A stretch of DNA of 34,319 nt, taken from positions 1 through 34,319 of the forward strand of contig JAMFSE010000050.1 of NCBI GenBank assembly GCA_026225115.1. The letters run 5' to 3'. The notes below the pieces were generated by a model that searched no databases, had not been told where the DNA came from, and saw only the letters and a list, made by a program, of their open reading frames with translations. A program made the translations under genes and the position numbers. Positions 5,193-31,177 of this stretch are shown one piece after another. The stretch is from Rhodovastum atsumiense. Lineage in GTDB: Bacteria > Pseudomonadota > Alphaproteobacteria > Acetobacterales > Acetobacteraceae. Positions within the stretch are counted from its first letter, which is position 1. Every line of letters starts with the position of its first letter.

Positions 5193-6454
5193 AAGAACAC
5201 GAAGGATCGGACCACGACGTTCTTGCGGCATCTCGCATCGGCCGGCGCAATCGGATCTATGCAGGCGCTGTGGAACGACCATCGTGAAACCGAACCATCG
5301 GTGATGGAATCATAGCATTTCAGCATCGAGACCTCGTTCGACTTCTGCTGCGGCAGCCAATACCATTCGTGATCGGGGCGATGGGTAAAGCGCGTGGTCT
5401 CGCCGACGCGGTCGTCATAGATGCGATAGTTCGTGATATAAGGCTGATCGGCGAAAGAGGGCCAGGCGCAGAGCACGAAGGGGAACTGCTCGACTGTTTC
5501 CATCGGCTTGGCAAGGTTGATCGACATGAAGCGGCGCGACATTTTTGCGTCGGCTTCGGCTCCGGTGTAATGCTGGGCGCGCCCGAAATTGCGCAGATTG
5601 CGGGTGAGCAGTTCGCGGCAGCGCACCCGGCCGCTGTTGTCATTCAAATCATTATGCACGATGTTGGCGTATTGCGCGTTGACGCCGGGATTTTTCGCAT
5701 TCTGGTCCTCGGTGCGGTCGCCGGTATAGTCCTTGTCGAAAACATCGTGGTTATAGACCAAAGCGTCGGTGGCGCCCGGAAAGAATTCCAAGAGGAGCTT
5801 CTCGATTTCGGGATAGAACACGCGCTCGACCTCAGCGGAATCATAGAAATTTGCGCATTTGGATTCGAGGTGCGCGAGTGAGACGCCGAGCTTGTCCATG
5901 GATTCCGGCGTTTCCGGCGAGAGGCCGGGGTAATACTCGCCGATGCGCCGGGCATCGCGCAGGACCTGCGGGAAATAGAGTTCCGGGCGACGTTGTGCCA
6001 GTTCCCCGCTGTTGCGCAGCAGCTCCGCCAGATCGACCTGTGCCGGATCCCGCCAGATCGCGTGGGAGGAGACTACCGAATAGGTTGACCGTTCCAACAC
6101 GGTGTAGCGCAAAGGCAAGGCGACGCCGCCAGCGGGCGCTTCGATATTATTGGCGCGGATATGTGCCAGACATTCGTCATAGCTGCGGAAGCCCAGACCC
6201 CATTCAGTTTCGATCGGGCCTGGCGGGGAAGTTTCGATCTGCTCAATCAGGCGCTGCTCCGCACCGCTAAGAAGTTCCGCGCGCGCATCTTTGAGCGCCA
6301 CCGCGGTTCCGGCGTCGCCGTTGCGCTCGAAGGCCATGTAGGAAAGCCCGCCATGCGCCGCGATCGGCGGCGGCTGGCCAGCGGTGCGTTGCAGCGGCGG
6401 CACAAAACTCGGGTTTGACGCGGTTGTTTTGTCGACGACATCCAGTGGGCTCAT
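5189..6454 (-). CDS. CmcJ/NvfI-family putative Fe(II)/2-oxoglutarate-type oxygenase
   Basis: The product has 421 residues; ATG 6454 is preceded by a strong GGAGGT five bases away. The C-terminal half matches the CmcJ/NvfI family. IVHNDL places H267 and D269 as an H-x-D pair. Later come SINLAKPMETV and FVLCAWPSFAD, then HEWYWLPQQKSNEVSMLKCYDS, and H395 in WSFHSACIDP as the likely distal iron ligand. The family includes CmcJ (cephamycin 7-alpha functionalisation) and NvfI (endoperoxide-forming oxygenase). Bacterial members are mostly uncharacterised. This one carries an extra N-terminal region of about 100 residues with a GLGFRSYDECLAHI segment. Its neighbours suggest oxidation of a small organic compound. 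The family call is firm, the substrate unknown. Confidence 0.8.
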   Translation of the reverse strand: MSPLDVVDKTTASNPSFVPPLQRTAGQPPPIAAHGGLSYMAFERNGDAGTAVALKDARAELLSGAEQRLIEQIETSPPGPIETEWGLGFRSYDECLAHIRANNIEAPAGGVALPLRYTVLERSTYSVVSSHAIWRDPAQVDLAELLRNSGELAQRRPELYFPQVLRDARRIGEYYPGLSPETPESMDKLGVSLAHLESKCANFYDSAEVERVFYPEIEKLLLEFFPGATDALVYNHDVFDKDYTGDRTEDQNAKNPGVNAQYANIVHNDLNDNSGRVRCRELLTRNLRNFGRAQHYTGAEADAKMSRRFMSINLAKPMETVEQFPFVLCAWPSFADQPYITNYRIYDDRVGETTRFTHRPDHEWYWLPQQKSNEVSMLKCYDSITDGSVSRWSFHSACIDPIAPADARCRKNVVVRSFVFF

Positions 6455-12061: not shown

Positions 12062-14629
12062 ATGTCATCGCTTAAAACCAAACTGGATGCGCAGCGCAAA
12101 CGTTCCGATTTAGCATCGCCGCAGGTATCCGCGCAACTGGCCCCGCCGCGGCCGATGCGCGCCCGCAAACCAAAACTGCAGTCCGGCGCCTTTGTCGACG
12201 CGAACGAGCCCGGTAAGATCCAAATCTTCGGCGCCGCTTTTCTTTCGGACCCGACGGGCCCTACGGCGCGGTTGTTTGTCGAGCGGGCATTTTCCGCCGA
12301 TGCGGTGCGCAGCGTTTTTATCGACGGCAAGCGAGGTAAGGCGGAAATTCACTACCGGTTCGGCGAGGACGGGCCGCTGGATGAAATCCAGAATATCTCG
12401 AAAATCATCGGCGGTGCCGGCGGAGTTTCGGTGCCGTGCAAATTGCCGGCGACCTATGGCCATGGCGCCGATAAGCAGATTTTTCTGCAGCGCTACGGAA
12501 GCCAGCTCTCGGGATGGAAGGTGAAGCATGAAATTGCCGGCCGTGTCCGGTTTCAAAACCCGATCCTGATCCGCCGGGGCGCGCTGCGGCAGGCGATCGA
12601 GGGCGAATTGGTGAATGCCTTCGGGATCGATAAATTTTCGGTGCAGGAATTCACCGGCACGGTGCTGGTGCATTACAGCGCCAAGCAGATTCAGAAACAT
12701 CAGATCATCGCGTTGCTGGATTCGGCACTTGAAAAGACAGAGGATTTTTCGCTGGCACCGATCGATTACGATCTGCCCGTGGCGCTGGCGACCGTGACGC
12801 TTGCCGGTCTCAGCCGGTTTGTGTTCCCGGCATTGACGCCGTTAAGCGCGATTGTGTTCCTGTATTCGGTTATTCCGAGCTTCAAGGGCGCCTATGATCT
12901 GCTGGTCAAGGAAAAGCGGCTCGGCGTCGATGTGCTGGATGCGATTGTGGTTGCCGCCTGCTTGGCGACGGGGCAAATTCTTGCGGGATCCGTGCTGTCG
13001 CTGACGCTCAGCGTTTCGCGCAAACTGGTGGAACAGACTGAGCGTAAATCCAAACGCATGCTGCTCAATGTGTTCGGAAAACAACCCCGCTTTGTCTGGC
13101 TGGATGCCGATGGCGCGGCGGTTGAAACGCCGCTTGAGAAGGTGAAGCCCGGCGATATCATCATTGTTCATACCGGCGAATCCGCACCCGTCGACGGCAC
13201 GGTTTTTGACGGCATGGCGATGATCGATCAGCACGCGCTGACGGGTGAATCCGCGCCGGTAGAAAAAACGACCGGTGACGAGGTGTTCGCCGGCACTACG
13301 GTGATTGCCGGAAAAATTCGGGTTTCCGTTACCAGCGCGGGCTCGGAAACCACTGCCGCCAAGCTTGCGCAAATTCTGAACGAAACCTCCGGCCATACCT
13401 TGAAGGCGCAGTCGAGCGGGCAATTGCTTGCCGACCGCGCGGTGGTGCCGACCTTGGCGCTCGGCGGCTTCAGCCTGGCAGTGCGCGGCGCGGCAAGCGC
13501 GGTCGCGGTGGTGAATTGCGATCTCGGGACCGGCATCCGCATGGCGGCGCCGATCGCGATGCTCTCATCGCTTACCCTTGCGGCACAGCAGGGCGTGTTG
13601 GTAAAATCCGGGCGCGCGCTTGAATCGATGAGCGAGATCGATACCTACCTGTTCGATAAAACCGGTACGCTGACCCGCGAGCGGCCGGAGGTCGGCCGGA
13701 TTCTGACCTTCGGTAATCACGATGAAAATACCATCCTGAGCTGGGCCGCAGCGGCGGAAAATAAGTTCAGCCACCCGATCGCGAAAGCTATTCTGGATCG
13801 ATTCCAGGCGCTCGATTTGCCGATGCCGCAGACAGATGAGACCAAATACGCCGTCGGCTACGGCGTCACCGTCGGCGTCGACGGCCATGTGGTGCGCGTC
13901 GGCAGCGCCCGCTTCATGGCACATGAGGGCATCAAACTACCCTCGGCGCTCGACCGTGAAATCGAACATGTACACGACGAAGGTCATTCGCTGATCATGA
14001 TCGGGGTCGATAACGAACTCGGCGGCGCGCTGGAACTGCGCGCGGCTGAACGCAACGAAGCGCAGCTTGTCATCTCCGGATTGCGCGAACGCGGCGCCAA
14101 ACACCTTGCTATCATCTCAGGCGATCACGACCGCCCCACCCGCAACCTCGCAAAACGCCTTGGCATGGATCGCTATTTCGCCGAAGTGCTGCCGCAGGAC
14201 AAAGCCCGCTACGTTACAACCTTGCAGAAGGAAGGCCGGAAAGTCTGCTTCATCGGCGACGGCATCAACGATTCCATTGCCCTGAAACAGGCGAATGTCT
14301 CGATTTCGCTGCGCGGCGCCTCCAGCATCGCCACCGACACCGCCGAAATCGTTTTCATGGAGGAGAGCCTGGAGAAGCTTCTGCAGATCCACGATATTTC
14401 CAGAGATTTGCAGCGCAATATTAAAACCAGCTGGCGTATGATCGTCGGCGCCAACGCGCTGTGTATCGCAGGCGCTTTGTTCGGCAATTTCGGCGTCATG
14501 CACTCAATGGTATTCAACCAAATCGGCGGCCTGGCCGCCGTCGCCAACGGCCTGATCCCGCTCCGCAAAGCCTCCGCGCTGCAGCGTGAGAAAGATGCGC
14601 TGACGGCGCTGCTGGCGGCGCAACAGTAG
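12062..14629 (+). CDS. P-type ATPase, P1B-like, with atypical transmembrane metal motif
   Basis: The 855-residue product has complete catalytic signatures: TGES at 394-397, DKTGTLT at 532-538 with phosphorylated D532, a nucleotide-domain HP (KFSHPIAKAI), and GDGIND at 732-737. Two N-terminal HMA2-like domains lie near 50-120 and 150-225 (VRSVFIDGKRGKAEIHY; HEIAGRVRF then FTGTVLVHY) and lack the usual CxxC. The helix before the P-domain has NCDLGTGIRMAAPIA (485-499) where P1B pumps carry CPC, SPC or CPH. C486 and D487 are the candidate ligands. It is an inner-membrane ATP-driven cation pump of unknown specificity. Its gene follows a small ORF by eight bases, and the first three-hairpin element lies just behind its stop. 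Confidence 0.85.
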   Translation: MSSLKTKLDAQRKRSDLASPQVSAQLAPPRPMRARKPKLQSGAFVDANEPGKIQIFGAAFLSDPTGPTARLFVERAFSADAVRSVFIDGKRGKAEIHYRFGEDGPLDEIQNISKIIGGAGGVSVPCKLPATYGHGADKQIFLQRYGSQLSGWKVKHEIAGRVRFQNPILIRRGALRQAIEGELVNAFGIDKFSVQEFTGTVLVHYSAKQIQKHQIIALLDSALEKTEDFSLAPIDYDLPVALATVTLAGLSRFVFPALTPLSAIVFLYSVIPSFKGAYDLLVKEKRLGVDVLDAIVVAACLATGQILAGSVLSLTLSVSRKLVEQTERKSKRMLLNVFGKQPRFVWLDADGAAVETPLEKVKPGDIIIVHTGESAPVDGTVFDGMAMIDQHALTGESAPVEKTTGDEVFAGTTVIAGKIRVSVTSAGSETTAAKLAQILNETSGHTLKAQSSGQLLADRAVVPTLALGGFSLAVRGAASAVAVVNCDLGTGIRMAAPIAMLSSLTLAAQQGVLVKSGRALESMSEIDTYLFDKTGTLTRERPEVGRILTFGNHDENTILSWAAAAENKFSHPIAKAILDRFQALDLPMPQTDETKYAVGYGVTVGVDGHVVRVGSARFMAHEGIKLPSALDREIEHVHDEGHSLIMIGVDNELGGALELRAAERNEAQLVISGLRERGAKHLAIISGDHDRPTRNLAKRLGMDRYFAEVLPQDKARYVTTLQKEGRKVCFIGDGINDSIALKQANVSISLRGASSIATDTAEIVFMEESLEKLLQIHDISRDLQRNIKTSWRMIVGANALCIAGALFGNFGVMHSMVFNQIGGLAAVANGLIPLRKASALQREKDALTALLAAQQ

Positions 14630-19056: not shown

Positions 19057-19227
19057 TAAGACGCTTAAAAGTTGCAACAGAATTGTTCAACTGACATGCT
19101 ACGCTGTTGCCTTTATGTGACAAACCTGATAACTCTACCGAAGAACTATGTATACCGCTTGTAGCTTTACGGTTTTTCAGCGAACGCGGGCAGAGTTACC
19201 CGTTAGTAACCATCGGGGATGGTAAGG

Positions 19228-19848
19228 ATGTCACTGGAAACGGGTACGCAGAAGGCAGTTATCGTCGGGATGGACTTTGAACGGGCAGCTCTATTGTCAA
19301 GCGAGCTTTCCAAATCGGGCGTCAAGGTTTGGCTCGCCGCTAACGAGACCGTGGATTTTCATTCTTTGCAAGTCGACGGCGACGTTTTTCTACATCGTCT
19401 ATTCCATAATCGTAATGCTTCCTTGTACGAGCTGTTCGAAGCGGTCGATGCACATCCCGGCGAATTGGAACTCGTCATTTTCCAGGTGGGGCACGCATTT
19501 GATAGAGATGCCAAAAAACAAACCATGTCCGACCCCAATACTATCGCGATTATAACGACGATTGCCCAGTCAATCCGGCGAATGGAATCGCAAAAGAAGG
19601 GGGTGATATATATTTGCGATGAGCAACAAAGTCAAAAAACTTCTCCACTATTAGCACTTTTCACAAAAACCCAATCGACGCAGAAAATGGTTGAGGGCGC
19701 TGCCTCTGAGGCGAAAAATAGCGGTATCCGCATAGAATATCTTACTTCTGCGGATCAGCTTGGAGACGCTGACTGGTTGATGCGTCACGCAACGAACCCG
19801 CGGGACAGTGGAATAGGTCGTTTTCCGGTTGGCCGGACCCTATCGTAA
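19228..19848 (+). CDS. Rossmann-like protein, possibly a degenerate short-chain dehydrogenase
   Basis: The product has 206 residues from ATG 19228; GGGGA lies eight bases upstream, which favours it over ATG 19219. The start KAVIVGMDFERAALLSSELS and GVKVWLAANETVDF alternate strand-helix-strand as in short-chain dehydrogenases. The middle strand (LELVIFQVGHAFD) and the later helix/strand (GVIYICDEQ) also fit. But the Gly-rich nucleotide loop, the NAG motif and the catalytic YxxxK are absent. It could be a pseudoenzyme or another Rossmann-fold protein. Base composition is more AT-rich than its neighbours, suggesting transfer. It lies alone between the metK remnant and the tRNA fragment. Confidence 0.5.
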   Translation: MSLETGTQKAVIVGMDFERAALLSSELSKSGVKVWLAANETVDFHSLQVDGDVFLHRLFHNRNASLYELFEAVDAHPGELELVIFQVGHAFDRDAKKQTMSDPNTIAIITTIAQSIRRMESQKKGVIYICDEQQSQKTSPLLALFTKTQSTQKMVEGAASEAKNSGIRIEYLTSADQLGDADWLMRHATNPRDSGIGRFPVGRTLS

Positions 19849-20740: not shown

Positions 20741-22120
20741 GTGCAATCCGGGGTACAAGCGGTTAAAGCGGAGCCGATTGACGTGCCGCGCTGGCGGGGC
20801 CTTGCCGGGGCCGTCGCGATGATCCGCGACCCGGCCGCGCATCTCGCCTCGCTCACCGAGCAGCACGGCGACTGCTTCCGCTACGCCTTCGGCGGCGTCG
20901 CGGCCACGCTGGTGATATCGCGGCCGTCCCTGATCCTGCATGTCCTTAAGACCTGTGAAGCGGCCTTCACCAAATCCGATATCCAGACCCGGTACATGCA
21001 AGCCTTCCTGGGTAAGGGACTGCTGACGCTGGCGGGAGAGGAATGGCGGCGGCAGCGCCGCGTCATCGCGGCCGGGTTCCGCGCCGACCGGCTGGAGAGC
21101 CTGTCCGAGCCGCTGGCCCGGCTGGTGGTGGCTGGGCTCGAGGAACTCGCGACCAGTGCTGCGAACGACGCGCCAGTTGCGATCGATATCGATATGATGC
21201 GATTGACCTTCCTTGCAGTCGCACGGGCGTTATTGGGAGCCGATATCGATGAGGCGGGCGTTTCCCGGATCAGCGAGGCGATCCTGCGGATTCAGGGCCA
21301 TCTTGTCCGCCGCATCGTCTTGCCCTGGGCAGATTCCTGGTTCCGCCTCTCGGGCGCCGATGAACGTCACCAGGCGCTCCGGCGCGCCGGCGACGGCGTT
21401 CTTGCCGCGAGCATCGAGCGCCGGTTGGCGGCGGGGGTGCCGACCGGCGAAGGCGATATGCTCGATGCGTTGCTGGCCGTGCGTGATCCTGAAACCGGCG
21501 AGCCGATGTCGCGTGAAGCGGTTGTTGCCGAACTGATGCAACTGCTGGTCGCGGGGCATGAAACCTCCTCGACCGTGCTTGCATGGACCCTGTGGTTGCT
21601 GGCCCGCCATCCCGAGGCGCTGATGGCGCTGCATGAGGAGTGTGACGCGGTGCTCTCCGGCCGCATCGCCGGCGCCGGCGACGTCTCCCGGCTGCCGCTG
21701 ACAATGGCGACGCTGAAGGAGGCCATGCGGCTCTACCCGCCCTTCTGGATGATCGACCGCCTCGCGGTCTCGGACTCTTCCTGCGACGGGATCGACATCC
21801 CGGCCGGGACCCGGATCGCGCTGCAGGTTGCCATCGTCCATCGCCGGCCGGATTGCTGGGCCGAGCCTGCGGCTTTTCGGCCCGAGCGTTTCCTGGGGCC
21901 GGAACGCACCAATGAACGCAGCGGCGCATATGTGCCATTTGGCACCGGGCCTCGCACCTGTGTCGGCAATGGTTATGCCTGGCTGCAAATGCTCGCGATC
22001 CTGACCGGGCTTGTTCAGCGCTTCGACATCGCCGCGGTCGACGACGCCGTAGCGCCACGCGCTTTGCTGATCCTGCGCCCGGCCGGCGGTATCGCCATGC
22101 GGCTGCGGAGGCGGGCATGA
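20741..22120 (+). CDS. Cytochrome P450
   Basis: The 459-residue product starts at GTG 20741 behind a strong AGGGGG. Hallmarks in order are W-R-R-Q-R in the C helix, the I-helix oxygen motif AGHET (271-275), ExxR (E327-A-M-R330), the FRPERF meander and the heme loop FGTGPRTC with the axial thiolate C407. No membrane anchor is seen, so it is a soluble bacterial P450. It would hydroxylate, desaturate or otherwise oxidise a substrate, here plausibly an acyl chain tethered to the carrier of the next protein. Its stop overlaps the start of the ligase-reductase gene (ATGA), so the two are translationally coupled. The redox partner is not in the window. Confidence 0.9.
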   Translation: MQSGVQAVKAEPIDVPRWRGLAGAVAMIRDPAAHLASLTEQHGDCFRYAFGGVAATLVISRPSLILHVLKTCEAAFTKSDIQTRYMQAFLGKGLLTLAGEEWRRQRRVIAAGFRADRLESLSEPLARLVVAGLEELATSAANDAPVAIDIDMMRLTFLAVARALLGADIDEAGVSRISEAILRIQGHLVRRIVLPWADSWFRLSGADERHQALRRAGDGVLAASIERRLAAGVPTGEGDMLDALLAVRDPETGEPMSREAVVAELMQLLVAGHETSSTVLAWTLWLLARHPEALMALHEECDAVLSGRIAGAGDVSRLPLTMATLKEAMRLYPPFWMIDRLAVSDSSCDGIDIPAGTRIALQVAIVHRRPDCWAEPAAFRPERFLGPERTNERSGAYVPFGTGPRTCVGNGYAWLQMLAILTGLVQRFDIAAVDDAVAPRALLILRPAGGIAMRLRRRA

Positions 22121-25100
22121 GCACCACATTCGCAACAGCAGCCGCGCAGAGCGTCGAGCCGGCGACGATCGTGGAAGCACTGGACGCGATCACGGCGGCT
22201 GATCCCGCGGCGCTGCTTTACACGTTCCACGATAGCAGGGGGCGCGTTACCGCAAGTTTCGACCGCGCCGGCTTCCAGCGTCGTGCCGCCGGCATCGCCG
22301 CCGAATTGGCGGCACTTCCGGGCTGGGCCGTGGGAGACCGGGTGATCCTGGCCTACCCCGCCGGCCTGGAGATGATCGCTGCTTTCTTTGGAACGATGCG
22401 GGCGGGCGGCATACCGGTGCCGGTGCCACCGCTCGGCAAGCAGTCAACGCGACACCGGATCGATCAGGTCGCCGGGGACTGCAGTGCTCGGGCAGTGCTG
22501 ACGGTCGGCAGCGGATCTTATCCGGCGCTGCCAACCTTCGATAGCTCGCTCTGGCCCGACGCCGTTCCGGAGCCGCCGCGCGCCGCGCCAGACGGGATCG
22601 CCTTCCTGCAATATACGTCCGGATCGACAAGCGCGCCGCGCGGCGTGCGCGTGACCCATCGAAACCTGCTGCATAATGGGGCGCTGGTCGTCGACCATCC
22701 CCGGCCGGTCGCGGTCAACTGGCTGCCGCAGCATCACGATATGGGGCTGATCGGCTACTGCCTGTATCCCGCACTGGCCGGCGGCGTGATGCATGGGCTG
22801 GCGCCCGAGGCATTCGTGGCGCGGCCAAAGCTGTGGCTGGAACTCATCACGCGCTATCAGGCGACGGCCAGCTCGGCACCCGGCTTTGCGTTCGACCATC
22901 TGCTGGACCGGCTTCAGCCCGGCGATCTGGACGAATTCGACATGTCCTCGATGCGGTTTCTGATGGCCGCCGCCGAACCGATCCGGCCCGAAACCTACGC
23001 CCGCTTCCTGAACGCAACGGCGCCGCTCGGGCTCGACCCAAGTGCCTTCTATGTCGCCTATGGGCTCGCCGAGGCGACGCTGGCGGTGACCAGCTACGGC
23101 CGCAGGCGGCTGACGCTGGGGGCCAAGGACCTGGCCCGCGGCCAGGCCCGCGAGGCGGCGACGCCGGCCGCTGTCGCCGCCGGCATTCGGGTGATGTCCT
23201 GCGGACTGCCGCTGGGGGACACGCAGGTCGCAATCGTGGGTCGCGGCAGCAGCGCCGGAACGACGCTTCCGCCTGGCAAGGTTGGCGAGGTCTGGCTGGC
23301 CGGCGACAGCATATGCCCCGGTTACTGGGTCCCGGGAGGTAGAGACGCCTTCAGTAAAAAGTTGGAAGGCAGTGACGCGCAATGGCTCGCCACCGGCGAT
23401 CTGGGGTTCCTGGATCAGGGTGAACTGGTGATTTGCGGCCGCGCCAAGGATTTGATCATCGTCCGCGGGCAGAACCTCTATCCGCAGGATATCGAGGCGA
23501 GCATCGCCCGCGCTTTGGGACTGCGGCCGGAAGTGGTTGCCGCCGTCGAGCGCGATGGCGAGGTGCTGGCGGTCGCCGAATGCCCGGGGCGCGCCAAGCC
23601 CGACCCGCTAGCAGCTGTGCGGCAGGTGCGCGTCGACCTTGGCATCGAGCTTGCCGAGCTGCTGCTGGTGCCGCCGCGGACACTGCCGCGCACCAGTTCG
23701 GGCAAGCTGCGGCGCCATCTCGTCGCAGCACTGCCGGATACGCCTGGTCTGAAGGTGATCGCGCACTGGCGCCGGGCTGCGTCCGCCGCCGGCGATGCGC
23801 CCTTCAGCTGGCTGCGTGAGCGTTACCAGCTCGACGGAACCGAAAGTCAAAACCTCGCCGATATCGGAGTCGAATCGCTCGACCTCGTCGGGCTGCTCCA
23901 TGAGATCCAGGAACTGCTCGTCGAGCATGGGGCCAGCAGGGTGGCCGAAGGCATCGACGCGCGGCTGGTGCAGCGCCTGGCGGTGCGTGATCTGATGGCA
24001 ATCGCCGACTCGCTGGAATGCGATCCGGCCGGTACCATCGCGCAGCTGGCAAGCGAGTTCGCAGATGCAGCCGCTGAAGTTCGCGCTGCCGAGCTGGCCG
24101 CGATGGCCGCCGACGCCGCCCGGCCGCCGCCGGTCATGGCTGCGGCGGGACCGGTGCCGGGCCTGAACGATGGGCCAGTGCTGTTGTCGGGCGCGACGGG
24201 CTTTCTGGGGCCGTTTCTGATCGCCAGCCTGCTCGCCCAGACAACGGTGCCGGTCATCGCACTGGTTCGCGCCGCCGATGCCGCCGAGGGTCAGCGACGC
24301 CTGCTCGCCGCCGCCGAGGCGACGGGCCTCGACAGGGCTGTGCAGGCGGCGATGGCGGAACGGGTTGAGGTGGTGCCCGCCGATGTTGCCCGCCCCGACC
24401 TCGGCCTCGATACCGCTACCTGGACCAGGCTGGCAAATGAGGTGGCGTCGGTGTTTCACAACGCCGCGCTGGTCAATTATTTGTTCGACTATGGACGGAT
24501 GCAGCCCGCCAATGTGCAGGGCACGGACGCGATGCTGGAGCTTGCGGCGCGTGGCCGGCGCAAGGTCTTCAACCATGTGTCGACGACCTTCATCTTCGGC
24601 TGGGCGACCAAGCCGTTCTTGCTTGAAACCGACGGCAATGCCGAAATGGCGCTGCTCGACTTTGGCTATAGCCAGACCAAATGGGCCTCGGAACAGCGGG
24701 TGTTGCGCGCCAGCGAAACCGGCCTGCCGATGCGCATGTTCCGCCCGGCGCTGATCACACCGTCGCTGACCGGCGGCGGCAATGCCATCGACATTACCAT
24801 CCGGCTGCTGAAGTTCATGATGGACCATGGCATCGGCGTCGATGCGCTGAACCAGGTCAGCTTCACACCGGTCGATCTCGTGGCCAATAACATCGTCGCC
24901 ATCGCCGGACTGGAAGACACGCTTGGCGGCAATTTCCATGTCGTGCGGGATGATTTCTCCAGCATGGCCGATGTTACGGATTGCATCACCGCCACCACCG
25001 GCCGGCCATTCACGCAGTTCCCGCTCAAGGGCTTCGTGCCGGAGGTCCTGCGCCGGGCAACCCGCGACGACCTGCTGTTCCCCTTGCTCGATTTTCTGAT

Positions 25101-25266
25101 CAACTCCATCGACAATATCGCCTCGATGGAATTCAAGCGCTATGACTCGACGTCCTATCAGGCGGCGCGTGATCGCAGCCCCTGGGGCAGACCCGATCCT
25201 TCGCTGCCCGAGACGGTCAGCGGCATCCTAGCCTTCATGAACCGGCAGGGGCTGATGCGCTACTAG
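22117..25266 (+). CDS. FAAL-type acyl-AMP ligase / carrier / thioester reductase fusion
   Basis: The 1049-residue product has three parts. The adenylation domain (about 1-545) has the ATP loop YTSGSTSAPRG at 166-176, WLPQHHDMGLIGYCLYPAL, MAAAEPI, and GRAKDLIIVRGQNLYPQDIE, typical of fatty acyl-AMP ligases. The lysine K530 lies in RTSSGKLRR. The carrier (about 560-645) carries the phosphopantetheine serine S587 in IGVESLD. The C-terminal Rossmann domain (about 685-1049) has GATGFLG (692-698), NHVSTTFIFG and YSQTK (Y851, K855), as in NAD(P)H-dependent thioester reductases. A free fatty acid would be adenylated, loaded on S587 and released as an aldehyde or alcohol. The layout resembles carboxylic acid reductases but with a FAAL-like front. 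The second three-hairpin element follows the stop. Confidence 0.88.
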   Translation: MSTTFATAAAQSVEPATIVEALDAITAADPAALLYTFHDSRGRVTASFDRAGFQRRAAGIAAELAALPGWAVGDRVILAYPAGLEMIAAFFGTMRAGGIPVPVPPLGKQSTRHRIDQVAGDCSARAVLTVGSGSYPALPTFDSSLWPDAVPEPPRAAPDGIAFLQYTSGSTSAPRGVRVTHRNLLHNGALVVDHPRPVAVNWLPQHHDMGLIGYCLYPALAGGVMHGLAPEAFVARPKLWLELITRYQATASSAPGFAFDHLLDRLQPGDLDEFDMSSMRFLMAAAEPIRPETYARFLNATAPLGLDPSAFYVAYGLAEATLAVTSYGRRRLTLGAKDLARGQAREAATPAAVAAGIRVMSCGLPLGDTQVAIVGRGSSAGTTLPPGKVGEVWLAGDSICPGYWVPGGRDAFSKKLEGSDAQWLATGDLGFLDQGELVICGRAKDLIIVRGQNLYPQDIEASIARALGLRPEVVAAVERDGEVLAVAECPGRAKPDPLAAVRQVRVDLGIELAELLLVPPRTLPRTSSGKLRRHLVAALPDTPGLKVIAHWRRAASAAGDAPFSWLRERYQLDGTESQNLADIGVESLDLVGLLHEIQELLVEHGASRVAEGIDARLVQRLAVRDLMAIADSLECDPAGTIAQLASEFADAAAEVRAAELAAMAADAARPPPVMAAAGPVPGLNDGPVLLSGATGFLGPFLIASLLAQTTVPVIALVRAADAAEGQRRLLAAAEATGLDRAVQAAMAERVEVVPADVARPDLGLDTATWTRLANEVASVFHNAALVNYLFDYGRMQPANVQGTDAMLELAARGRRKVFNHVSTTFIFGWATKPFLLETDGNAEMALLDFGYSQTKWASEQRVLRASETGLPMRMFRPALITPSLTGGGNAIDITIRLLKFMMDHGIGVDALNQVSFTPVDLVANNIVAIAGLEDTLGGNFHVVRDDFSSMADVTDCITATTGRPFTQFPLKGFVPEVLRRATRDDLLFPLLDFLINSIDNIASMEFKRYDSTSYQAARDRSPWGRPDPSLPETVSGILAFMNRQGLMRY

Positions 25267-25297
25267 CGCGCGATAGGCTAGGTCGGATCAGTAAGAG

Positions 25298-25430
25298 GCC
25301 GCTTTTTGGAAAAAAGCGGCGCAAAAACTTTTTTGAATCTGGGCCATGGCCGTTGGCGTTTTCAGCGCCAATAGCCCAGATTCAAAAAGTCTTTTTGCTT
25401 CTTTTTCTTCAGAAAAAGAAGCGCTTCCCC
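25298..25430. repeat. Three-hairpin intergenic element, copy B
   Basis: The first hairpin is GCCGCTTTTT (25298-25307) with AAAAAGCGGC (25311-25320), followed by GCAAAAACTTTT. The centre is a long inverted repeat (TTTTTGAATCTGGGC near 25330-25344 against GCCCAGATTCAAAAA at 25374-25388) enclosing a smaller one (TTGGCG and CGCCAA). The terminal hairpin is GCTTCTTTTTC (25397-25407) against GAAAAAGAAGC (25412-25422) with a TTCA loop, then GCTTCCCC. It lies between the convergent ligase-reductase and monooxygenase genes. The centre differs from copy A in sequence but keeps its pairing. Confidence 0.75.
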
Positions 25431-25453
25431 GCTGCTGACTCAACCCAAAATGA

Positions 25454-26893
25454 TCAGGCTTCGACGTCGACGAAATCGGCGGGATTGAGCTTTCGCAGCC
25501 GGCGCCGGAAGCCGGCGGTGAGACCAGGGTAGATCACCGAGTTGCGCCCCTGTCGGTCCAGGAACCAGCTGCTGCAGCCGCTGGCCCAGACGGTGCCCGG
25601 CAGCCGGCCCGCCAGCCATTGGTTGTAATCCGCCTGGCGCGCGGCATCCGGCATGATCGGCCCGCGTTGCGCCAGCAGGCGCAGCCATTGCCGGACATAG
25701 GCGATCTGCGATTCCGCCACATGCACCGCCGAGGAATGGCTGAGCCCCGAATTGGGACCGAGCAGAAAGGCGAGGTTCGGAAAACCCGCGGCCACCGTGC
25801 CCAGATAGGCGCTGACGCCACGCTCCATCCACAGCTCGGGCAGGCGGTGGCCGGCAACGCCTCCGACCGGCAGGAGACCGTCCGCATCGGCGACATGATA
25901 GCCGGTGGCGAACACCACGTGGTCGGCCGCGATCCGCCGTCCGTCGGCAAGGATTGGGCCGTCGCGGTCGAACCCGGCCAGCGCGCCGCGCAGCAGGGTT
26001 ACGTCGGGACGCGCGAAGGCCGGCCAATAGTCGTCGGACACCATGATGCGCTTGCAGCCCAGCCGATAGTCGGGCCGAAGCAACGCCCGGGTCGCGGGGT
26101 CCGGCACTTCGCGCGCCAGCTTGGCGAGCGCCACCCGTTCGACAAGTGCTGCCATTGGCCGGTTGCCGAGGTTGCCGAGGCCCAGTGCCTCCAGCTGCCA
26201 GTAGCGGGCGCCGCGTTCCAGCCGGTCGAGCATCGGCAAGGCCCGGCCCAGGCGGCGGCGCCAAGCCGGCCGCTGCCGGTCGCCACGCGGGAGCACCCAG
26301 GCCGGCGTGCGCTGGATCGCCGTCACTCGCGCCGCCGTGCCGGCGAAAGCCGGGACGATCTGTACAGCACTTGCGCCGGCGCCGATCACCGCGACATGCC
26401 GGCCGGAGAGGTCCCAGCTGTCGTTCCAGGCGGAACTGTGGCACCAGCTGCCCGTGAAATCCGCCAGCCCCGGATAATCCGGCCGGCGCGGCCGGCTTTG
26501 CGGCCCTAATGCCAGCAGCACGGCGCGCGCCCTCACCGTCGTTCCGCCGATTTCGAGCCGCCAGGCATTGCCTTCCCAGTGCAGCCCGTCGACCTGGCTG
26601 TTCAGGCTGATGTGATCTTCAAGTTCTCGGGCAACGTCTGTGAGATAGGCGTGGATCTCGGCGCGCCCCGCAAAGCGTTGTGACCAGTCCGGATTGGGCC
26701 GGTTGGCCAGGCAGTAGAGCATGGATGGGACGTCGCAGGCGGCACCCGGATAGCGGGTATCGCGCCAGATCCCGCCGACCGCCGAGCCACGCTCGAAGAT
26801 GCGGAAGCGCCAGCCGTCGGCGGCGAGTGCCAGGCCTGCAGCCAGCCCGCTGAACCCGGCGCCCACCACTGCCACATCGAGCGTGGCAGTCAC
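25454..26893 (-). CDS. Flavin-containing monooxygenase, Baeyer-Villiger type
   Basis: The 479-residue product starts at GTG 26893, overlapping the upstream methyltransferase stop (GTGA). It has two dinucleotide-binding sites: GAGFSGLAAG (11-20) for FAD and VIGAGASAVQ near 175 for NADPH. YPGAACDVPSMLY follows the first. The Baeyer-Villiger fingerprint appears as F146-x-G148-xxx-H152-xxx-W156, but with N157 where P or D is usual. ATGYH occurs late, as in the family. It should insert oxygen next to a ketone or oxidise an aldehyde or a heteroatom, using NADPH and O2. In this cluster an aldehyde made by the thioester reductase is an attractive substrate. That link is inference. Confidence 0.87.
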   Translation of the reverse strand: MTATLDVAVVGAGFSGLAAGLALAADGWRFRIFERGSAVGGIWRDTRYPGAACDVPSMLYCLANRPNPDWSQRFAGRAEIHAYLTDVARELEDHISLNSQVDGLHWEGNAWRLEIGGTTVRARAVLLALGPQSRPRRPDYPGLADFTGSWCHSSAWNDSWDLSGRHVAVIGAGASAVQIVPAFAGTAARVTAIQRTPAWVLPRGDRQRPAWRRRLGRALPMLDRLERGARYWQLEALGLGNLGNRPMAALVERVALAKLAREVPDPATRALLRPDYRLGCKRIMVSDDYWPAFARPDVTLLRGALAGFDRDGPILADGRRIAADHVVFATGYHVADADGLLPVGGVAGHRLPELWMERGVSAYLGTVAAGFPNLAFLLGPNSGLSHSSAVHVAESQIAYVRQWLRLLAQRGPIMPDAARQADYNQWLAGRLPGTVWASGCSSWFLDRQGRNSVIYPGLTAGFRRRLRKLNPADFVDVEA

Positions 26894-27675
26894 GCCGCGT
26901 TGGCGGGCCGCCGGCCGCTGAGGACGAGGTAGCGGCGGTCGCCGGCGAGCTCGGCGCGATAATGGCGGATCAGTCCGCGGCCGGCGAAACGCGCCAGCCA
27001 GGCAAACGGGCCGCCGCCGCCGGGCAGCACACCGTTGATGGAGCGCAGGCCGAGCGCCAGCCGCTCGGTGACGTCATCGACGGCGTCGAGCGTGAGGCCC
27101 GCCGCGGTGATCGCGTCGCGCCACTGTGGCTCGGTCCAGCAGAAGGTGTCGGTCAGCCGGTAGAGGAGGTTGTTGCTGCCGCTGATGCTGACCAGCTCGG
27201 CGATGGCGAAGCGGCCGCCGGGCCGCAGCACGCGGTGCAGATTGGCCAGAAAGGCGGGCTTATCGGGATAGTGATGCGCGCTTTCCACGCAGAGTGCCGC
27301 ATTGGCGCTGGCGTCGGCCACCGTGCTGAGGCGCTGGGCATCATCGACGGCGAAGCTGACGCGGGAACCGGTCTGGCCGGCTGCGGACTGCGCGTGCGCG
27401 ATATGCGGCGGATAAAGATCGATGGCGCGATAGGAGGCCGGGTGGTGACGGGTGGCGAGGTAGTTCGCCTGCTCGCCGTTGCCGCAGCCTATTTCCAGAA
27501 CGTCGTGTCCGTCGATGCCGCCGAGCTGCTCGACAACATGGTCGCTGAAACTTTGCTGGCCTTCGATGAGGCTTTGGCCGGCATGAACGAATAGCGGATA
27601 GTGCAGCATCTGCTGCTTGCCGTAGACGGCGCGAAACGCGCGATCCATCGTCCAGTAGAAGGCCTCCATCGCCAT
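26890..27675 (-). CDS. Class I SAM-dependent methyltransferase
   Basis: The product has 261 residues from ATG 27675 (GGGG upstream); the frame can also start at GTG 27684. Motif I is DVLEIGCGNGEQANYLA (61-77). The acidic end of strand 2 is YRAIDLYPPHI, motif II lies near AALCVESAHHYPDK, and RVLRPGGRFAIAEL is the post-motif strand, all typical of small-molecule methyltransferases of the UbiE/sterol-methyltransferase-like kind. The N-terminus (YWTMDRAFRAVYGKQQMLHY) resembles those that act on lipids or quinones. It is the first gene of a two-gene operon with the monooxygenase. It is divergent from the desaturase gene at 27752 with about 75 bp between. Confidence 0.87.
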   Translation of the reverse strand: MAMEAFYWTMDRAFRAVYGKQQMLHYPLFVHAGQSLIEGQQSFSDHVVEQLGGIDGHDVLEIGCGNGEQANYLATRHHPASYRAIDLYPPHIAHAQSAAGQTGSRVSFAVDDAQRLSTVADASANAALCVESAHHYPDKPAFLANLHRVLRPGGRFAIAELVSISGSNNLLYRLTDTFCWTEPQWRDAITAAGLTLDAVDDVTERLALGLRSINGVLPGGGGPFAWLARFAGRGLIRHYRAELAGDRRYLVLSGRRPANAA

Positions 27676-27751
27676 AGCGCCCACCCCCGTGCCACGGCTG
27701 CCTTGCCCTCGGCTAGAGTCCTGCTAGCATATCGTAACGAGGAGATAAACC

Positions 27752-28825
27752 ATGTTCGCAGCGGCAAATGCGCCGGTTTTTGCCGCCTCCTCCGCGTTCT
27801 GGCGGGAGGTTCGGACCGAGACCGCCGCGGCGCTGGCGAGCAGGCCCGAGCATCCGTCCGTCGGCGATCCTCGCCTGCATCGAAAGGCACTCGTCATCGT
27901 AATGATCTTCCTGTCCGCTTATGCCGCTTTGCTCGCCGGCTTTGGTCCGGCGGCGGTTGTGCTGCTGGCCATGCTCCAAGGGGCGGCGGCGGCGACTTTG
28001 GGGCTCGGCGTTTTCCATGATGCGGGTCACAGCACGTTCTCGCGCCGTGCCGCCACCAACCGGCTGGTCGCCCGGGCCTGCTGCGTCATGCTGGGGCCGT
28101 CCCGTTTCTACTGGGACGTCAAGCACCACCGGCTGCACCACCGTGCCCCCAACATCGCCGGCTGGGACGACGATGTTGATGCCCGCGGCGTGCTGCGGCT
28201 GACGCCCGAGGATGCCTGGGCGCCGCGCTTTGCGGCGCAGCACCTGCGGCTCCCGTTCCTCTATGCGCTGAACACGATCGAATGGTTCTTTTTGAAGGAT
28301 TTCCTGTGCCTGTGGCGCGGGCGGTTGAACCCCTGGCAGCCGGCGCGGCCGACCGGCGCGGCGCTGGTGGAGTTCTGGACCGACAAGGCGCTGTGGTTTG
28401 TGCTGTTCGTGCTGCCGCCCTTTTTGCTGCTGCCGTTTGCCTGGGCGGTGATGGCGTTTCTCGCTTATCATTTCGTTTTCAGCCTGGCGCTGACATTCGT
28501 TTTCCAGCTGGCCCATCTGACCCCCGACATGGCTTTCGGCCCGCCGCGGCCAGGCGATGATTTCGCCAGCCACCAATTGCGCACCACGGCCAATTTCGCC
28601 ACCGGCAGCCTGTGGGTCACCTGGTTCACCGGCGGTCTCAATCACCAGATCGAGCATCATTTGCTGCCCGGCGTGGCGCATACGCATTACCGCATGCTGG
28701 CCCCTGTGGTCGCAGCGGCGGCGCGGCGGCACGGCCTGCCCTACCATGATCTGGGCGGCCTTAGCACCGCCATTCGCCAGCATGTGACCCTGGTGCGCGA
28801 GCTGGGATTGCCCCGCCATGGCTGA
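27752..28825 (+). CDS. Membrane fatty-acid desaturase
   Basis: The 357-residue product starts at ATG 27752, with GAGGAG about 7 bases upstream. All three histidine boxes of the di-iron membrane desaturase family are present: HDAGH (89-93), HHRLHH (125-130) and NHQIEHH, with Q299-I-E-H302-H303. Hydrophobic spans near 46-90 and 200-260 make the usual two hairpins. It should introduce a double bond (or hydroxylate or epoxidise) in an acyl chain bound to lipid, CoA or carrier, using O2 and electrons. No fused cytochrome b5 or ferredoxin domain is seen. Its stop overlaps the start of the cyclopropane synthase gene by eight bases, so the two are made together. Confidence 0.9.
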   Translation: MFAAANAPVFAASSAFWREVRTETAAALASRPEHPSVGDPRLHRKALVIVMIFLSAYAALLAGFGPAAVVLLAMLQGAAAATLGLGVFHDAGHSTFSRRAATNRLVARACCVMLGPSRFYWDVKHHRLHHRAPNIAGWDDDVDARGVLRLTPEDAWAPRFAAQHLRLPFLYALNTIEWFFLKDFLCLWRGRLNPWQPARPTGAALVEFWTDKALWFVLFVLPPFLLLPFAWAVMAFLAYHFVFSLALTFVFQLAHLTPDMAFGPPRPGDDFASHQLRTTANFATGSLWVTWFTGGLNHQIEHHLLPGVAHTHYRMLAPVVAAAARRHGLPYHDLGGLSTAIRQHVTLVRELGLPRHG

Positions 28826-29966
28826 CCGGGGCATGGAAGCAGCCGTCAGTAACCTGTTTGCCAAAGCCGGCATCGGCATTGGCGGCGATGGGCCGACCGA
28901 CATCACCGTCCATGACCCGCGCTTTTATTCGGCCGTGCTGCGGGACGGCGAGCTTGGCATGGGCGAGAGCTACATGGCGGGGTGGTGGGACACGCCCTCG
29001 ATTGATGCGCTTGCCACCCGCTTCATCGCCTCGGGACTGTTGGAGCAGGGCTATCGCAGCCCCGCCGTTGTTGCCTACGCGCTGCTGGCGCGGCTAAAGG
29101 GCGTGGGCAGCCGCCGCCGCGCCTTCGACGTCGGCGAGCAGCATTACGATCTTGGCAACGATTTGTTCGAGGCCATGCTCGATCCACGAATGATCTATAG
29201 CTGCGCGGACTGGTCCAGCGCCGAGACGCTGGAGGCGGCGCAGGAAGCTAAGCTGGAGCTGGTCTGCCGTAAGCTGGGCCTGCAGCCGGGCCAGCGCATC
29301 CTCGAGATCGGCTGCGGCTGGGGCGGCTTCGCGCGCTGGGCGGCCGAACGCCATGGCGTCTCGGTGGTGGGCGTCACCGTGTCGGTCGAACAGGCAGCGC
29401 TGGCGCGCCAGCGCTGCGCCGGCCTACCGGTCGAGATCCGCGTCTGCGATTACCGCGCCATCGAGGGCCAGTTCGACCATGTCGCCTCGATCGCCATGGT
29501 TGAGGCGGTGGGCCTGCGCTATCTCGACACTTATATGGAAACGGTGGCGCGCGTGCTGAAGCCGGAGGGGCGTTTTGTGCTGCACGGCTTTTACGGCAAT
29601 GAGCCGGTGGCGCCGCAGCACGCCCGCTGGCTGGATAAATACATCTTTCCCGGCGGCGCGGCGCCGGCGCTGTGGCAGATCATCAAGGCCGCGCAGGGGC
29701 GACTCGCCGTCGAGGCACTGCACCGCCTCGACGGCTATGACCGCACGCTTGGCGAATGGGAGCAAAGGTTCGAAGCCGCATGGCCGCGGCTGTCGGCGCA
29801 GTATGACGGCCGGTTCTACCGCATGTGGCGCTTCTATCTCGGGATCTCGCGGGCGATTTTCCGGGCCCGGCTGTGCCATGTCTGGCACATCGTTTTTTCG
29901 CATCAACTGCCGGGACGCGGACCCACGCCGATGTTCCTGCCGGTCGCCGAGATCGAAGCGCGTTAA
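28818..29966 (+). CDS. Cyclopropane-fatty-acid synthase-like SAM methyltransferase
   Basis: The 382-residue product has HYDLGNDLFEAMLD (109-122), MIYSCADW with the bicarbonate-associated Cys C129, motif I ILEIGCGWGGFARW (161-174), MVEAVG (227-232) with E229, LHGF with H256, KYIFPGG and Y340 in RMWRFYL. These correspond to the known C, E, H and Y residues of E. coli Cfa. The usual MFEHVG has become MVEAVG, with an Ala where His is common. The enzyme would add a methylene or methyl to a double bond, using SAM. Directly downstream of the desaturase that supplies a double bond, it fits conversion of unsaturation into a cyclopropane or branched group. The third hairpin element follows. Confidence 0.9.
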   Translation: MADRGMEAAVSNLFAKAGIGIGGDGPTDITVHDPRFYSAVLRDGELGMGESYMAGWWDTPSIDALATRFIASGLLEQGYRSPAVVAYALLARLKGVGSRRRAFDVGEQHYDLGNDLFEAMLDPRMIYSCADWSSAETLEAAQEAKLELVCRKLGLQPGQRILEIGCGWGGFARWAAERHGVSVVGVTVSVEQAALARQRCAGLPVEIRVCDYRAIEGQFDHVASIAMVEAVGLRYLDTYMETVARVLKPEGRFVLHGFYGNEPVAPQHARWLDKYIFPGGAAPALWQIIKAAQGRLAVEALHRLDGYDRTLGEWEQRFEAAWPRLSAQYDGRFYRMWRFYLGISRAIFRARLCHVWHIVFSHQLPGRGPTPMFLPVAEIEAR

Positions 29967-30000
29967 AGGATCTTATTTTCGAAATGATTCAAGTAAAGCG

Positions 30001-30120
30001 GTCGCTTTTTGAAAAAAGCGACGCAAAAACTTTTGTTACTTTCGAGCCGGGATCTTCGAGTGCCAATGGCTTCGCGCCGAGCGTCTTCCGGTTTTCTTCA
30101 GAAAGAGAAGTGCTTCCCCT
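30001..30120. repeat. Three-hairpin intergenic element, copy C (diverged)
   Basis: The first hairpin GTCGCTTTTT (30001-30010) pairs with AAAAAAGCGAC (30012-30022). Both arms changed together from GCCGC to GTCGC, so pairing is conserved. GCAAAAACTTTT follows as in copy B. The centre is eroded but keeps a GAGCCGG segment. The terminal arm is shorter (CTTC against GAAG near 30094-30110) and ends in TGCTTCCCC. It again lies between convergent genes. The paired change suggests selection on structure. Confidence 0.65.
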
Positions 30121-30163
30121 TAGCTGAAAATACAGGGTCAACTTAAAGATTCAGATCCAGCGC

Positions 30164-31177
30164 TCAGACCAGGCGGTGGAGCAACCGGTGATGGGCTGCG
30201 ACCGCCGTGCCGAAGCGCTGGTTGACGCGGTAGGGCAGGCCGCATTCGCGCGCGGTTGCCGTGATCAGCCGGGTCAGCGCCGGGTAATGGACGTGACAAA
30301 TGCCGGGGAACAAATGATGGGCGACGTGGGTATGCAGGCCGCCGCCGATGGCGGCCAGCAACCGGCTGTCGGGCGCGACATCGGTGGTGGTTGCCAGCAC
30401 ATGGCTTACATGGTCCTCGGGCAAGGCAGCGGGAAAGCTGTTGCCCTCGACCAGATGGGTGATCTGGAACAGCAGCAACATCGCCACCCCGGCCGCCATC
30501 TGGCCGGCGATGAACCCGCCCAGCACCAGGGCCGCAGGCTTTCCCGACAGCAGCAGCGGCAGGCCCAGCAGCACCGCCAGATAGAGCAGCTTGTTGACGG
30601 CCAGCCTTGCCAACGGCTGATTGTACCTGCGGGCCAGCTGGAAATCACGAATGAAGGCGAGATCAAGGAAGCCCATCGCATAGACCGCCCAGGCCAATCG
30701 CGACTGCCAGCGGCCGAGCTTCGAGCGCGGCTGCAATGGCGACACCCGGATCAGGCCGCGGGTGTCGAGCGCGTTATCCACCGCGCCGACGTTCATTACC
30801 CCATGGTGATCGTCATTATGGCTGCGCCGGAAGACGTTCGGGTCCATGCCGCATAGCGACATAACATGGGCCAGCCAGGCATCGATCCGCCGCCGCCGGG
30901 TGAACGCTGTATGCACGGCATCATGGGCGACGTTGACCAGGAGAAAAGCCTGGGCCAGGCCATTGGCAATCCACAAGGTCAGGAAAATCAGCGGCGCCAC
31001 GCCCGGCAGGCAAAGCAAAGCCAGCGTGCCGCCATGCACCGCCAGCCCCAACGCCAGCTTGACCCAGGCGCCAGGATCGGCACCGGGCCGGCGGCCGGCA
31101 AAATAAGTGTTAACCCGGGACCTTAGCAGGCGCCGGAAGCGGACAACATCCCCGAGGTCAGCCGGCACCATGTCCAT
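30164..31177 (-). CDS. Second membrane fatty-acid desaturase with a variant third histidine box
   Basis: The 337-residue product starts at ATG 31177 or 31171; neither has a clear ribosome site. Histidine boxes are HDAVH (85-89), HNDDHH (120-125) and HTHVAHHLFPG (282-292). In the third box the normal Q-x-x-H-H is H284-V-A-H287-H288, and a further His sits at 282. Hydrophobic spans occur near 40-80 and 190-240. It is a di-iron membrane oxygenase, perhaps with desaturase, acetylenase or hydroxylase activity. Sequence is only distantly like the desaturase at 27752. It transcribes toward the cyclopropane synthase, and element C separates them. Confidence 0.85.
   Translation of the reverse strand: MDMVPADLGDVVRFRRLLRSRVNTYFAGRRPGADPGAWVKLALGLAVHGGTLALLCLPGVAPLIFLTLWIANGLAQAFLLVNVAHDAVHTAFTRRRRIDAWLAHVMSLCGMDPNVFRRSHNDDHHGVMNVGAVDNALDTRGLIRVSPLQPRSKLGRWQSRLAWAVYAMGFLDLAFIRDFQLARRYNQPLARLAVNKLLYLAVLLGLPLLLSGKPAALVLGGFIAGQMAAGVAMLLLFQITHLVEGNSFPAALPEDHVSHVLATTTDVAPDSRLLAAIGGGLHTHVAHHLFPGICHVHYPALTRLITATARECGLPYRVNQRFGTAVAAHHRLLHRLV

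Follow-up and report, generated by a model that had tools for sequence, protein, structure and literature searches.

A contig of 34,319 nucleotides from a draft genome of Rhodovastum atsumiense (GCA_026225115.1, contig JAMFSE010000050.1), referred to here as the window, carries seven genes between positions 20741 and 31177 that probably constitute a real and apparently undescribed cluster for tailoring a fatty chain and releasing it reductively. They encode a cytochrome P450, a fusion of fatty acyl-AMP ligase (FAAL), carrier and thioester reductase domains, a Baeyer-Villiger-like flavin monooxygenase (BVMO), a methyltransferase (MT), two membrane desaturases (DES1 and DES2) and a relative of cyclopropane fatty acid synthases (CFA) (Table 1). 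From their sequences and linkage, we judge it quite probable that these genes serve one dedicated pathway with reductive release. An initial annotation of this DNA had named the same enzymes, and each is present as an open frame with Pfam matches above curated cut-offs; the eight-gene set it described is in fact seven genes, followed at 31421 by an efflux permease. Its proposal of a single, apparently undescribed fatty-chain pathway gains support from linkage of the genes in distant lineages and from the open-licence literature, in which searches for FAAL with thioester reductase, and for combinations with desaturase, P450, cyclopropane and BVMO, returned no matching cluster. A description may exist outside that literature.

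The fusion is the central enzyme of the proposed pathway. It matches the Pfam families AMP-binding (E = 1.5e-52) and NAD_binding_4 (E = 6.9e-55), and the best Protein Data Bank (PDB) matches of its adenylation domain are 7r7e (a polyketide synthase FAAL domain), 3kxw, FadD23, 3pbk, FadD32 and FadD28, several of them presumably FAALs. Among the matches are also 5d6j, 5icr and 7wua, deposited as acyl-CoA synthases, and, far lower, a malonyl-CoA synthetase (2.5e-21). Within the best 25 of 96 NCBIfam matches to the fusion, the best specific models are FAAL types, none of them above its own cut-off, and the scores lie close together (294.5 for a FAAL model versus 292.6 for PRK07768, named as a CoA ligase). 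These structural and family matches uphold the FAAL-type loading domain of the initial annotation: by sequence, the domain is nearer to FAALs than to CoA ligases, and it is predicted to transfer its substrate to a carrier and not to CoA.

At the other end of the fusion, the reductase domain scores above the cut-off of TIGR01746, the NCBIfam model for thioester reductases (229.2 versus 213.35 bits). Its nearest relative is the reductase domain of myxalamid MxaA (157 bits), with carboxylic acid reductases (CARs) reaching at most 99 bits. Because we take MxaA to be a four-electron reductase, an alcohol would be as likely a product as an aldehyde. Assignment of the fusion as a CAR was rejected, as the equivalog model scores 133.8 bits against a cut-off of 1300. 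Residues Ser587, Tyr851 and Lys855 are invariant in ten aligned fusions, and the latter two are presumably the Tyr/Lys pair of the thioester reductase domain. We assign the carrier from its position between the adenylation and reductase domains and from Ser587 (in GVESLDL in the window; usually DS in relatives). Since this serine is invariant and in place, a divergent carrier domain is likely.

Family and motif evidence identifies the tailoring enzymes. Heme (FGTGPRTCVG), AGHETSS and ExxR motifs are present in the P450, and each desaturase has three histidine boxes. Phenylacetone monooxygenases are the best PDB relatives of the flavin enzyme (E = 6e-51), and six aligned sequences contain segments resembling FxGxxxHxxxW and GGxWRDxxYPGxxxD, together with GCKR, which we take to be the type I BVMO fingerprints and an active-site Arg. 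Departures from these segments are F to Y in the Fluviibacterium locus (L023) and P to L in a deltaproteobacterial one (L080), and the residue following W is N in the window. On its fingerprints the enzyme is a type I BVMO, and Baeyer-Villiger activity is predicted. The MT is weakly similar to phthiotriol and fatty-acid O-methyltransferases (77 bits or less, below cut-off); for the P450, the MT and the flavin enzyme, no model among the NCBIfam matches listed passes its cut-off.

CFA scores 450.5 bits with the NCBIfam model NF008686 (Cfa; cut-off 400) and conserves the counterparts of Cys139, Glu239, His266 and Tyr317 of E. coli Cfa, presumably active-site residues; His240 is replaced by Ala and Ile268 by Phe. 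By score and active-site residues it is a predicted cyclopropane fatty acid synthase. The Ala that follows the catalytic Glu was discarded as a possible hallmark of the cluster enzyme, as other Cfa-like copies have the same change; particular to the cluster CFA is the combination of this His-to-Ala change with the kept Cys and His. A second Cfa-like subfamily (L138-L141, L103 and L141 being one gene) has altered active-site segments, such as YSSALF / EAVG / LQIITI. It co-occurs with Cfa copies bearing the usual segments in three of four genomes; in G781 its sole companion is the cluster copy.

Evidence that these genes belong together comes from their linkage in other bacteria. A scan of named-species genomes yielded 109 relatives, from which 80 loci were kept. 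The fusion type is present in 71 of them (blastp >350 bits), 55 mycobacterial and 16 other, and the remaining nine are mycobacterial loci with FAAL-only matches. Contig ends truncate some of the 71 (coverage of the query is 56% in L080 and 40% in L083); L059 and L075, both mycobacterial, derive from one genome. Conserved synteny, proposed as a check by the initial annotation, held in part: partial sets occur in distant bacteria, but all seven genes lie together in no other locus examined. The fullest set is that of a Caulobacter metagenome-assembled genome (MAG; L076), with six of the seven genes on a 13.5-kb contig, followed by Fluviibacterium (L023) with five; in both, the order is changed and identities are 36-56%. 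A deltaproteobacterial MAG (L080) combines fusion, P450 and BVMO, L027 has fusion and P450, and L021 and L077 have fusion and BVMO. Linkage is thus kept across distant lineages at 32-56% identity, with gene order altered. BVMO is the commonest cluster neighbor among the 16 non-mycobacterial relatives (five: L021, L023, L076, L077 and L080), followed by the P450 (four: L023, L027, L076 and L080), DES1 (two: L023 and L076), CFA (L023), MT (L076) and DES2 (L076).

Several details qualify these counts. Contigs L022, L027, L070, L083 and L080 measure only 6.9-8.1 kb, the last of them 8.1 kb, and the P450 of L080, missed by a simple gene caller, rests on tblastn. A DES2 in L023 was rejected, as the DES2 query matches only the DES1 gene there, and five genes are counted instead of six. 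Absence of a clustered CFA from L076 may be real, because its genome (G780) was searched and its two Cfa-like genes (39% and 44% identical) lie on other contigs. Inside the related clusters are genes for radical S-adenosylmethionine (SAM) proteins (L076, 1465-3147, minus strand; L023, 19169-20758, minus strand). The L023 protein has a B12-binding domain and the corresponding L076 match is below the Pfam cut-off; NCBIfam scores are all below cut-off, and the L023 list includes ladderane- and hopanoid-associated models. We did not accept these genes as shared members, given an alignment of 23% identity over part of their length and none annotated in the window cluster.

From these components we outline a pathway. 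The FAAL domain would adenylate a free fatty acid and load it onto the carrier pantetheine at Ser587. Double bonds would be made by the desaturases, and CFA would convert one cis double bond into a cyclopropane, either on the carrier or on a membrane lipid prior to loading. The P450 would install a hydroxyl, which the MT may cap by methylation, and the chain would leave through the reductase domain. Because, outside mycobacteria, BVMO accompanies the fusion more often than any other cluster gene (five of 16 loci, versus four for the P450), we suggest that reductase and BVMO share one carbonyl as their target, with oxygen inserted beside the carrier-bound or just-released carbonyl. Subsequent reduction or hydrolysis would yield a modified fatty alcohol with one carbon fewer than the acid that was loaded. 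This shortening step at the carrier-end carbonyl is tentative, with the chances somewhat against it. In L021, the fusion, BVMO and an alpha/beta hydrolase are encoded in a row, and the BVMO row of L080 includes a sulfotransferase gene. We speculate on a bacterial class in which one FAAL-carrier-reductase and a BVMO excise one carbon at release, producing cyclopropane-bearing, O-methylated nor-fatty alcohols, with tailoring genes (cyclopropane synthase, radical SAM enzymes, methyltransferase or sulfotransferase) swapped between lineages; in this full form the proposal is unlikely.

We give the same odds to a BVMO acting in mid-chain, where the P450 would hydroxylate the chain, a dehydrogenase encoded elsewhere would make the ketone and BVMO would convert it to an internal ester, the fusion releasing a full-length aldehyde or alcohol. 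A short-chain dehydrogenase/reductase (SDR; PF00106) gene does lie between the BVMO and sulfotransferase genes of L080, and a BVMO relative in Deinococcus sp. NW-56 is flanked by an alpha/beta hydrolase and an SDR, presumably the usual ketone-cleavage set. However, the annotated genes of the window, L076 and L023 clusters include no SDR or alcohol dehydrogenase, and L021 and L077 hold fusion and BVMO with no P450 match.

The statement in the initial annotation that all enzymes lie together goes too far, as no redox partner or phosphopantetheinyl transferase was found among the cluster genes. Loose patterns for ferredoxin and rubredoxin matched three times past position 17000; since none falls inside a called gene, the redox partners probably come from elsewhere. 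For the transferase, two PF01648 matches were found, both on other contigs of the assembly.

Comparison of linked copies with those elsewhere separates the cluster genes by specificity. The MT has no match in 375 other genomes of the class (E<=1e-25) and none on plasmids (E<=1e-15), and its relative in L076 is 51% identical. DES1 reaches 46-47% identity in L076 and 40-43% in L023, versus at most 34% in the seven of 375 other class genomes that match (E<=1e-30). For CFA, the L023 copy is 56% identical versus 38-44% for eight other copies in five genomes searched, and the best of 12 plasmid copies listed is 46.8%. DES2 and its L076 relative share 39-40%. BVMO identity is 47-49% in four of the linked loci but 33% in the fifth, L080, versus 44.7% for the best of 15 plasmid records listed; the P450 is 36-40% identical in linked loci, versus 34.8% for the top match among 12 listed. 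The P450s of the window, L023, L076 and L080 all contain the segment PPFWMIDR unchanged, and together with the downstream heme motif it was found in no other locus compared. Plasmid neighborhoods of BVMO and desaturase relatives provide general hints only. The strongest ties, and the best case for co-inheritance, thus appear to be those of MT and DES1, with less for CFA, the P450 and BVMO. On these sequence comparisons we take the cluster to be a real functional unit and not a set of common families that merely lie close.

These figures also bear on whether part of the set consists of chance neighbors, with P450, fusion and BVMO forming a pathway and the desaturase-cyclopropane pair and DES2 modifying bulk membrane lipids. 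Cyclopropane synthases normally act on phospholipids, other Cfa-like genes exist in the window's genome, and L021, L077 and L080 (the last only 8.1 kb) hold fusion and BVMO with no desaturase matches. Set against this are the presence of DES1 in both large related clusters, the closeness of the L023 CFA (56%, against 38-44% for the eight other copies) and the presence of DES2 and MT in L076, and we consider a chance grouping rather improbable.

The fusion itself is sporadically distributed. It was found in none of 36 congeners (draft genomes, 73-100% complete) and in no other genome among 61 drawn as relatives, which include those congeners (E<=1e-80), nor in any other among 398 of the phylum (E<=1e-150). 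A search of the class, in which at most two candidates were scored per genome, matched ten other genomes among 385, in the FAAL part only. Within the Fluviibacterium family, one of 345 genomes has the fusion, Fluviibacterium itself. Such a pattern is as would be expected for a transferred accessory pathway. An integrase-core (rve) gene (L023, 7000-8010) adjoins the Fluviibacterium cluster, and a 527-amino-acid gene (L023, 13285-14868) lies inside it; the latter has no Pfam match and is AT-rich by eye, and on these grounds was taken as an insert and not as a cluster member. The presence of the rve and AT-rich genes suggests mobility at this locus.

Mycobacterial fusions (55 loci, L028 among them) are 38-41% identical to that of the window and keep different company: a PF00781 kinase relative (52 of 55), PF10118 (49 of 55) and a ferredoxin-type reductase (48 of 55), each in none of the 16 non-mycobacterial loci. 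No P450 relative above 80 bits lies within 10 kb of the fusion in the 55 loci; a flavin monooxygenase of 27-35% identity is present about 4-8 kb from the fusion in 12, and a relative (27-31%) of the L021 alpha/beta hydrolase in 16. A 427-amino-acid gene, which we take to resemble DesA3, occurs in seven of the 55. In the open-licence literature found, no role is assigned to the mycobacterial fusion. That the fusion merely supplies fatty alcohol or aldehyde for ether lipids or wax esters, the oxidases being side branches, is quite improbable: its domain logic does yield such products, and the mycobacterial kinase and hydrolase relatives fit, but no acyltransferase, wax synthase or glycerol-ether gene is among the annotated cluster genes, and the kinase, PF10118 and reductase neighbors are confined to mycobacteria among these loci.

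A number of observations weigh against the dedicated pathway and its shortening step. No carrier domain (acyl carrier protein [ACP] or peptidyl carrier protein) is matched by Pfam in the fusion at E<=0.001, and the annotated genes of the window cluster include neither a hydrolase nor a dehydrogenase nor a redox partner. An alpha/beta hydrolase is annotated near one (L021) of the five relatives with a linked BVMO; the other four, like the window cluster, have none. In lysergic amides, the closest analogy for the proposed release, the shifted carbon bears nitrogen, and a plain alkyl group migrates less readily. The formate ester of that system has never been directly observed (PMC12571304). CFA, MT and DES2 are linked in one relative apiece, and BVMO and the P450 are only mildly specific to the linked loci. 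None of the partners occurs in L022, L070 or L083, nor in the three loci of Methyloceanibacter type and the four from Oxalobacteraceae. Because 11 of the 16 non-mycobacterial relatives have no nearby BVMO and 12 no P450, and because the 55 mycobacterial copies have other neighbors, presence of the fusion does not in itself imply this pathway.

Base composition adds a further point on the same side, a step in GC at the edge of the cluster, where it climbs from about 56% to 67%. Given this rise and a contamination estimate of 2.2% for the MAG, recent transfer of the cluster or mis-binning is possible. The window is an entire contig of a 3.67-Mb assembly of 149 contigs (completeness 98.8%). Per kilobase, GC is 0.50-0.66 in the left arm and 0.56 between 20 and 21 kb, and beyond 21 kb it is 0.62-0.71; seven stretches from other contigs of the assembly average 0.59-0.64. 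For the tetranucleotide bias of the right arm, correlations are 0.45-0.69 against six other contigs from this assembly and 0.43-0.55 against six foreign loci. A chimeric contig is disfavored by these correlations, although the ranges overlap, and a single genome is favored without being proven.

Table 1. Genes of the putative fatty-chain cluster and the adjoining permease gene (window coordinates; aa, amino acids)
Feature	Coordinates	Strand	Evidence and remarks
Cytochrome P450, 459 aa	20741..22120	+	PF00067 E=5e-71; first gene of P450-fusion pair
FAAL-carrier-thioester reductase fusion, 1049 aa	22117..25266	+	AMP-binding, NAD_binding_4; Ser587, Tyr851/Lys855
Type I Baeyer-Villiger-like flavin monooxygenase (BVMO), 479 aa	25454..26893	-	PF13738 E=5e-17, FMO-like E=5.5e-12
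SAM-dependent methyltransferase (MT), 264 aa	26890..27684	-	PF08241 E=2e-19; overlaps BVMO gene
Membrane fatty acid desaturase DES1, 357 aa	27752..28825	+	PF00487 E=8e-31; three His boxes
Cyclopropane-fatty-acid-synthase relative (CFA), 382 aa	28818..29966	+	CMAS E=1e-75, NF008686; overlaps DES1 8 bp
Second membrane desaturase DES2, 337 aa	30164..31177	-	PF00487 E=1e-25
RND-type (resistance-nodulation-division) efflux permease, interrupted by contig end	31421..34319	+	PF00873 E=1e-161

By their coordinates, three gene pairs of the cluster overlap: P450 and fusion (4 bp), MT and BVMO (4 bp), and DES1 and CFA (8 bp). The RND permease is a possible exporter for the cluster and a candidate member only. 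Elsewhere in the window, divergent P-type ATPase genes lie at 9217-11712 (minus strand; E1-E2 ATPase domain match, HMA_2 only below cut-off) and 12062-14629 (plus strand; E1-E2, Hydrolase and HMA_2). Two long open frames have no Pfam match (5192-6454, minus strand, 421 amino acids; 19219-19848, plus strand, 209 amino acids).

If the proposed pathway is correct, it would represent an unrecognized family of lipid metabolites in Alphaproteobacteria and other bacteria, and the fusion would be an all-in-one, FAAL-type fatty acid reducing enzyme that is present in mycobacteria too. FAAL genes are usually met with polyynes and lipopeptides, and this cluster family would stand apart. CARs have the same order of adenylation, carrier and reductase domains in one chain, and differ in that the adenylation domain here is closest to FAALs. 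Meromycolate tailoring in mycobacteria likewise relies on FAAL loading of a fatty chain, which is desaturated, cyclopropanated and O-methylated; in contrast, the present genes form one small cluster with a P450 and reductive release and no condensing polyketide synthase.

Polyyne clusters, such as those for caryoynencin and protegencin, resemble this one in their FAAL, desaturases and carrier. As described in passages of one survey, their common genes are those for a FAAL, a desaturase, an ACP, two more desaturases, a thioesterase and a rubredoxin, and in the polyyne clusters of 10 actinobacterial genomes a P450 gene replaces the thioesterase and rubredoxin (PMC8406139). The distinction from polyyne clusters drawn by the initial annotation agrees with this account: those clusters typically have a separate ACP gene, thioesterase and rubredoxin, and three desaturases, whereas here the carrier is fused and accompanied by a reductase, two desaturases, CFA, BVMO and MT. 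A polyyne or alkyne cassette was rejected for the carrier within the fusion, the reductase domain at its end and the lack of a rubredoxin pattern match in called genes.

Reductive use of a carrier-bound fatty acid has a parallel in tambjamine YP1, where, in the parts of two reports consulted, TamA (adenylation-ACP) loads the fatty acid and TamH (transaminase-reductase) reduces it to an aldehyde and converts this to an amine (PMC5939613, PMC9594044). Both systems would adenylate a fatty acid, load it on a fused ACP and reduce it to an aldehyde; tambjamine biosynthesis uses two proteins and an AAR-like reductase domain, whereas the cluster described here has one protein with an NAD_binding_4 reductase. 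No aminotransferase is among the cluster proteins scanned with Pfam, and a tambjamine-type tail is not indicated.

The lysergic system is fungal, acts on a peptide substrate and has no FAAL, desaturase or cyclopropane synthase. In the formation of lysergic acid alpha-hydroxyethylamide, according to passages of the papers on it, the Lps3 reductase domain and the BVMO EasO handle a carrier-bound acyl group, and the alpha/beta hydrolase EasP is a non-essential helper (PMC12571304, PMC9118626). The window cluster differs in having no annotated hydrolase. What it shares, at the level of gene association alone, is the pairing of a reductase domain with a BVMO, to which L021 adds a hydrolase beside both. 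Should the proposed release prove true, a bacterial counterpart of the fungal reductase-BVMO release would become directly testable.

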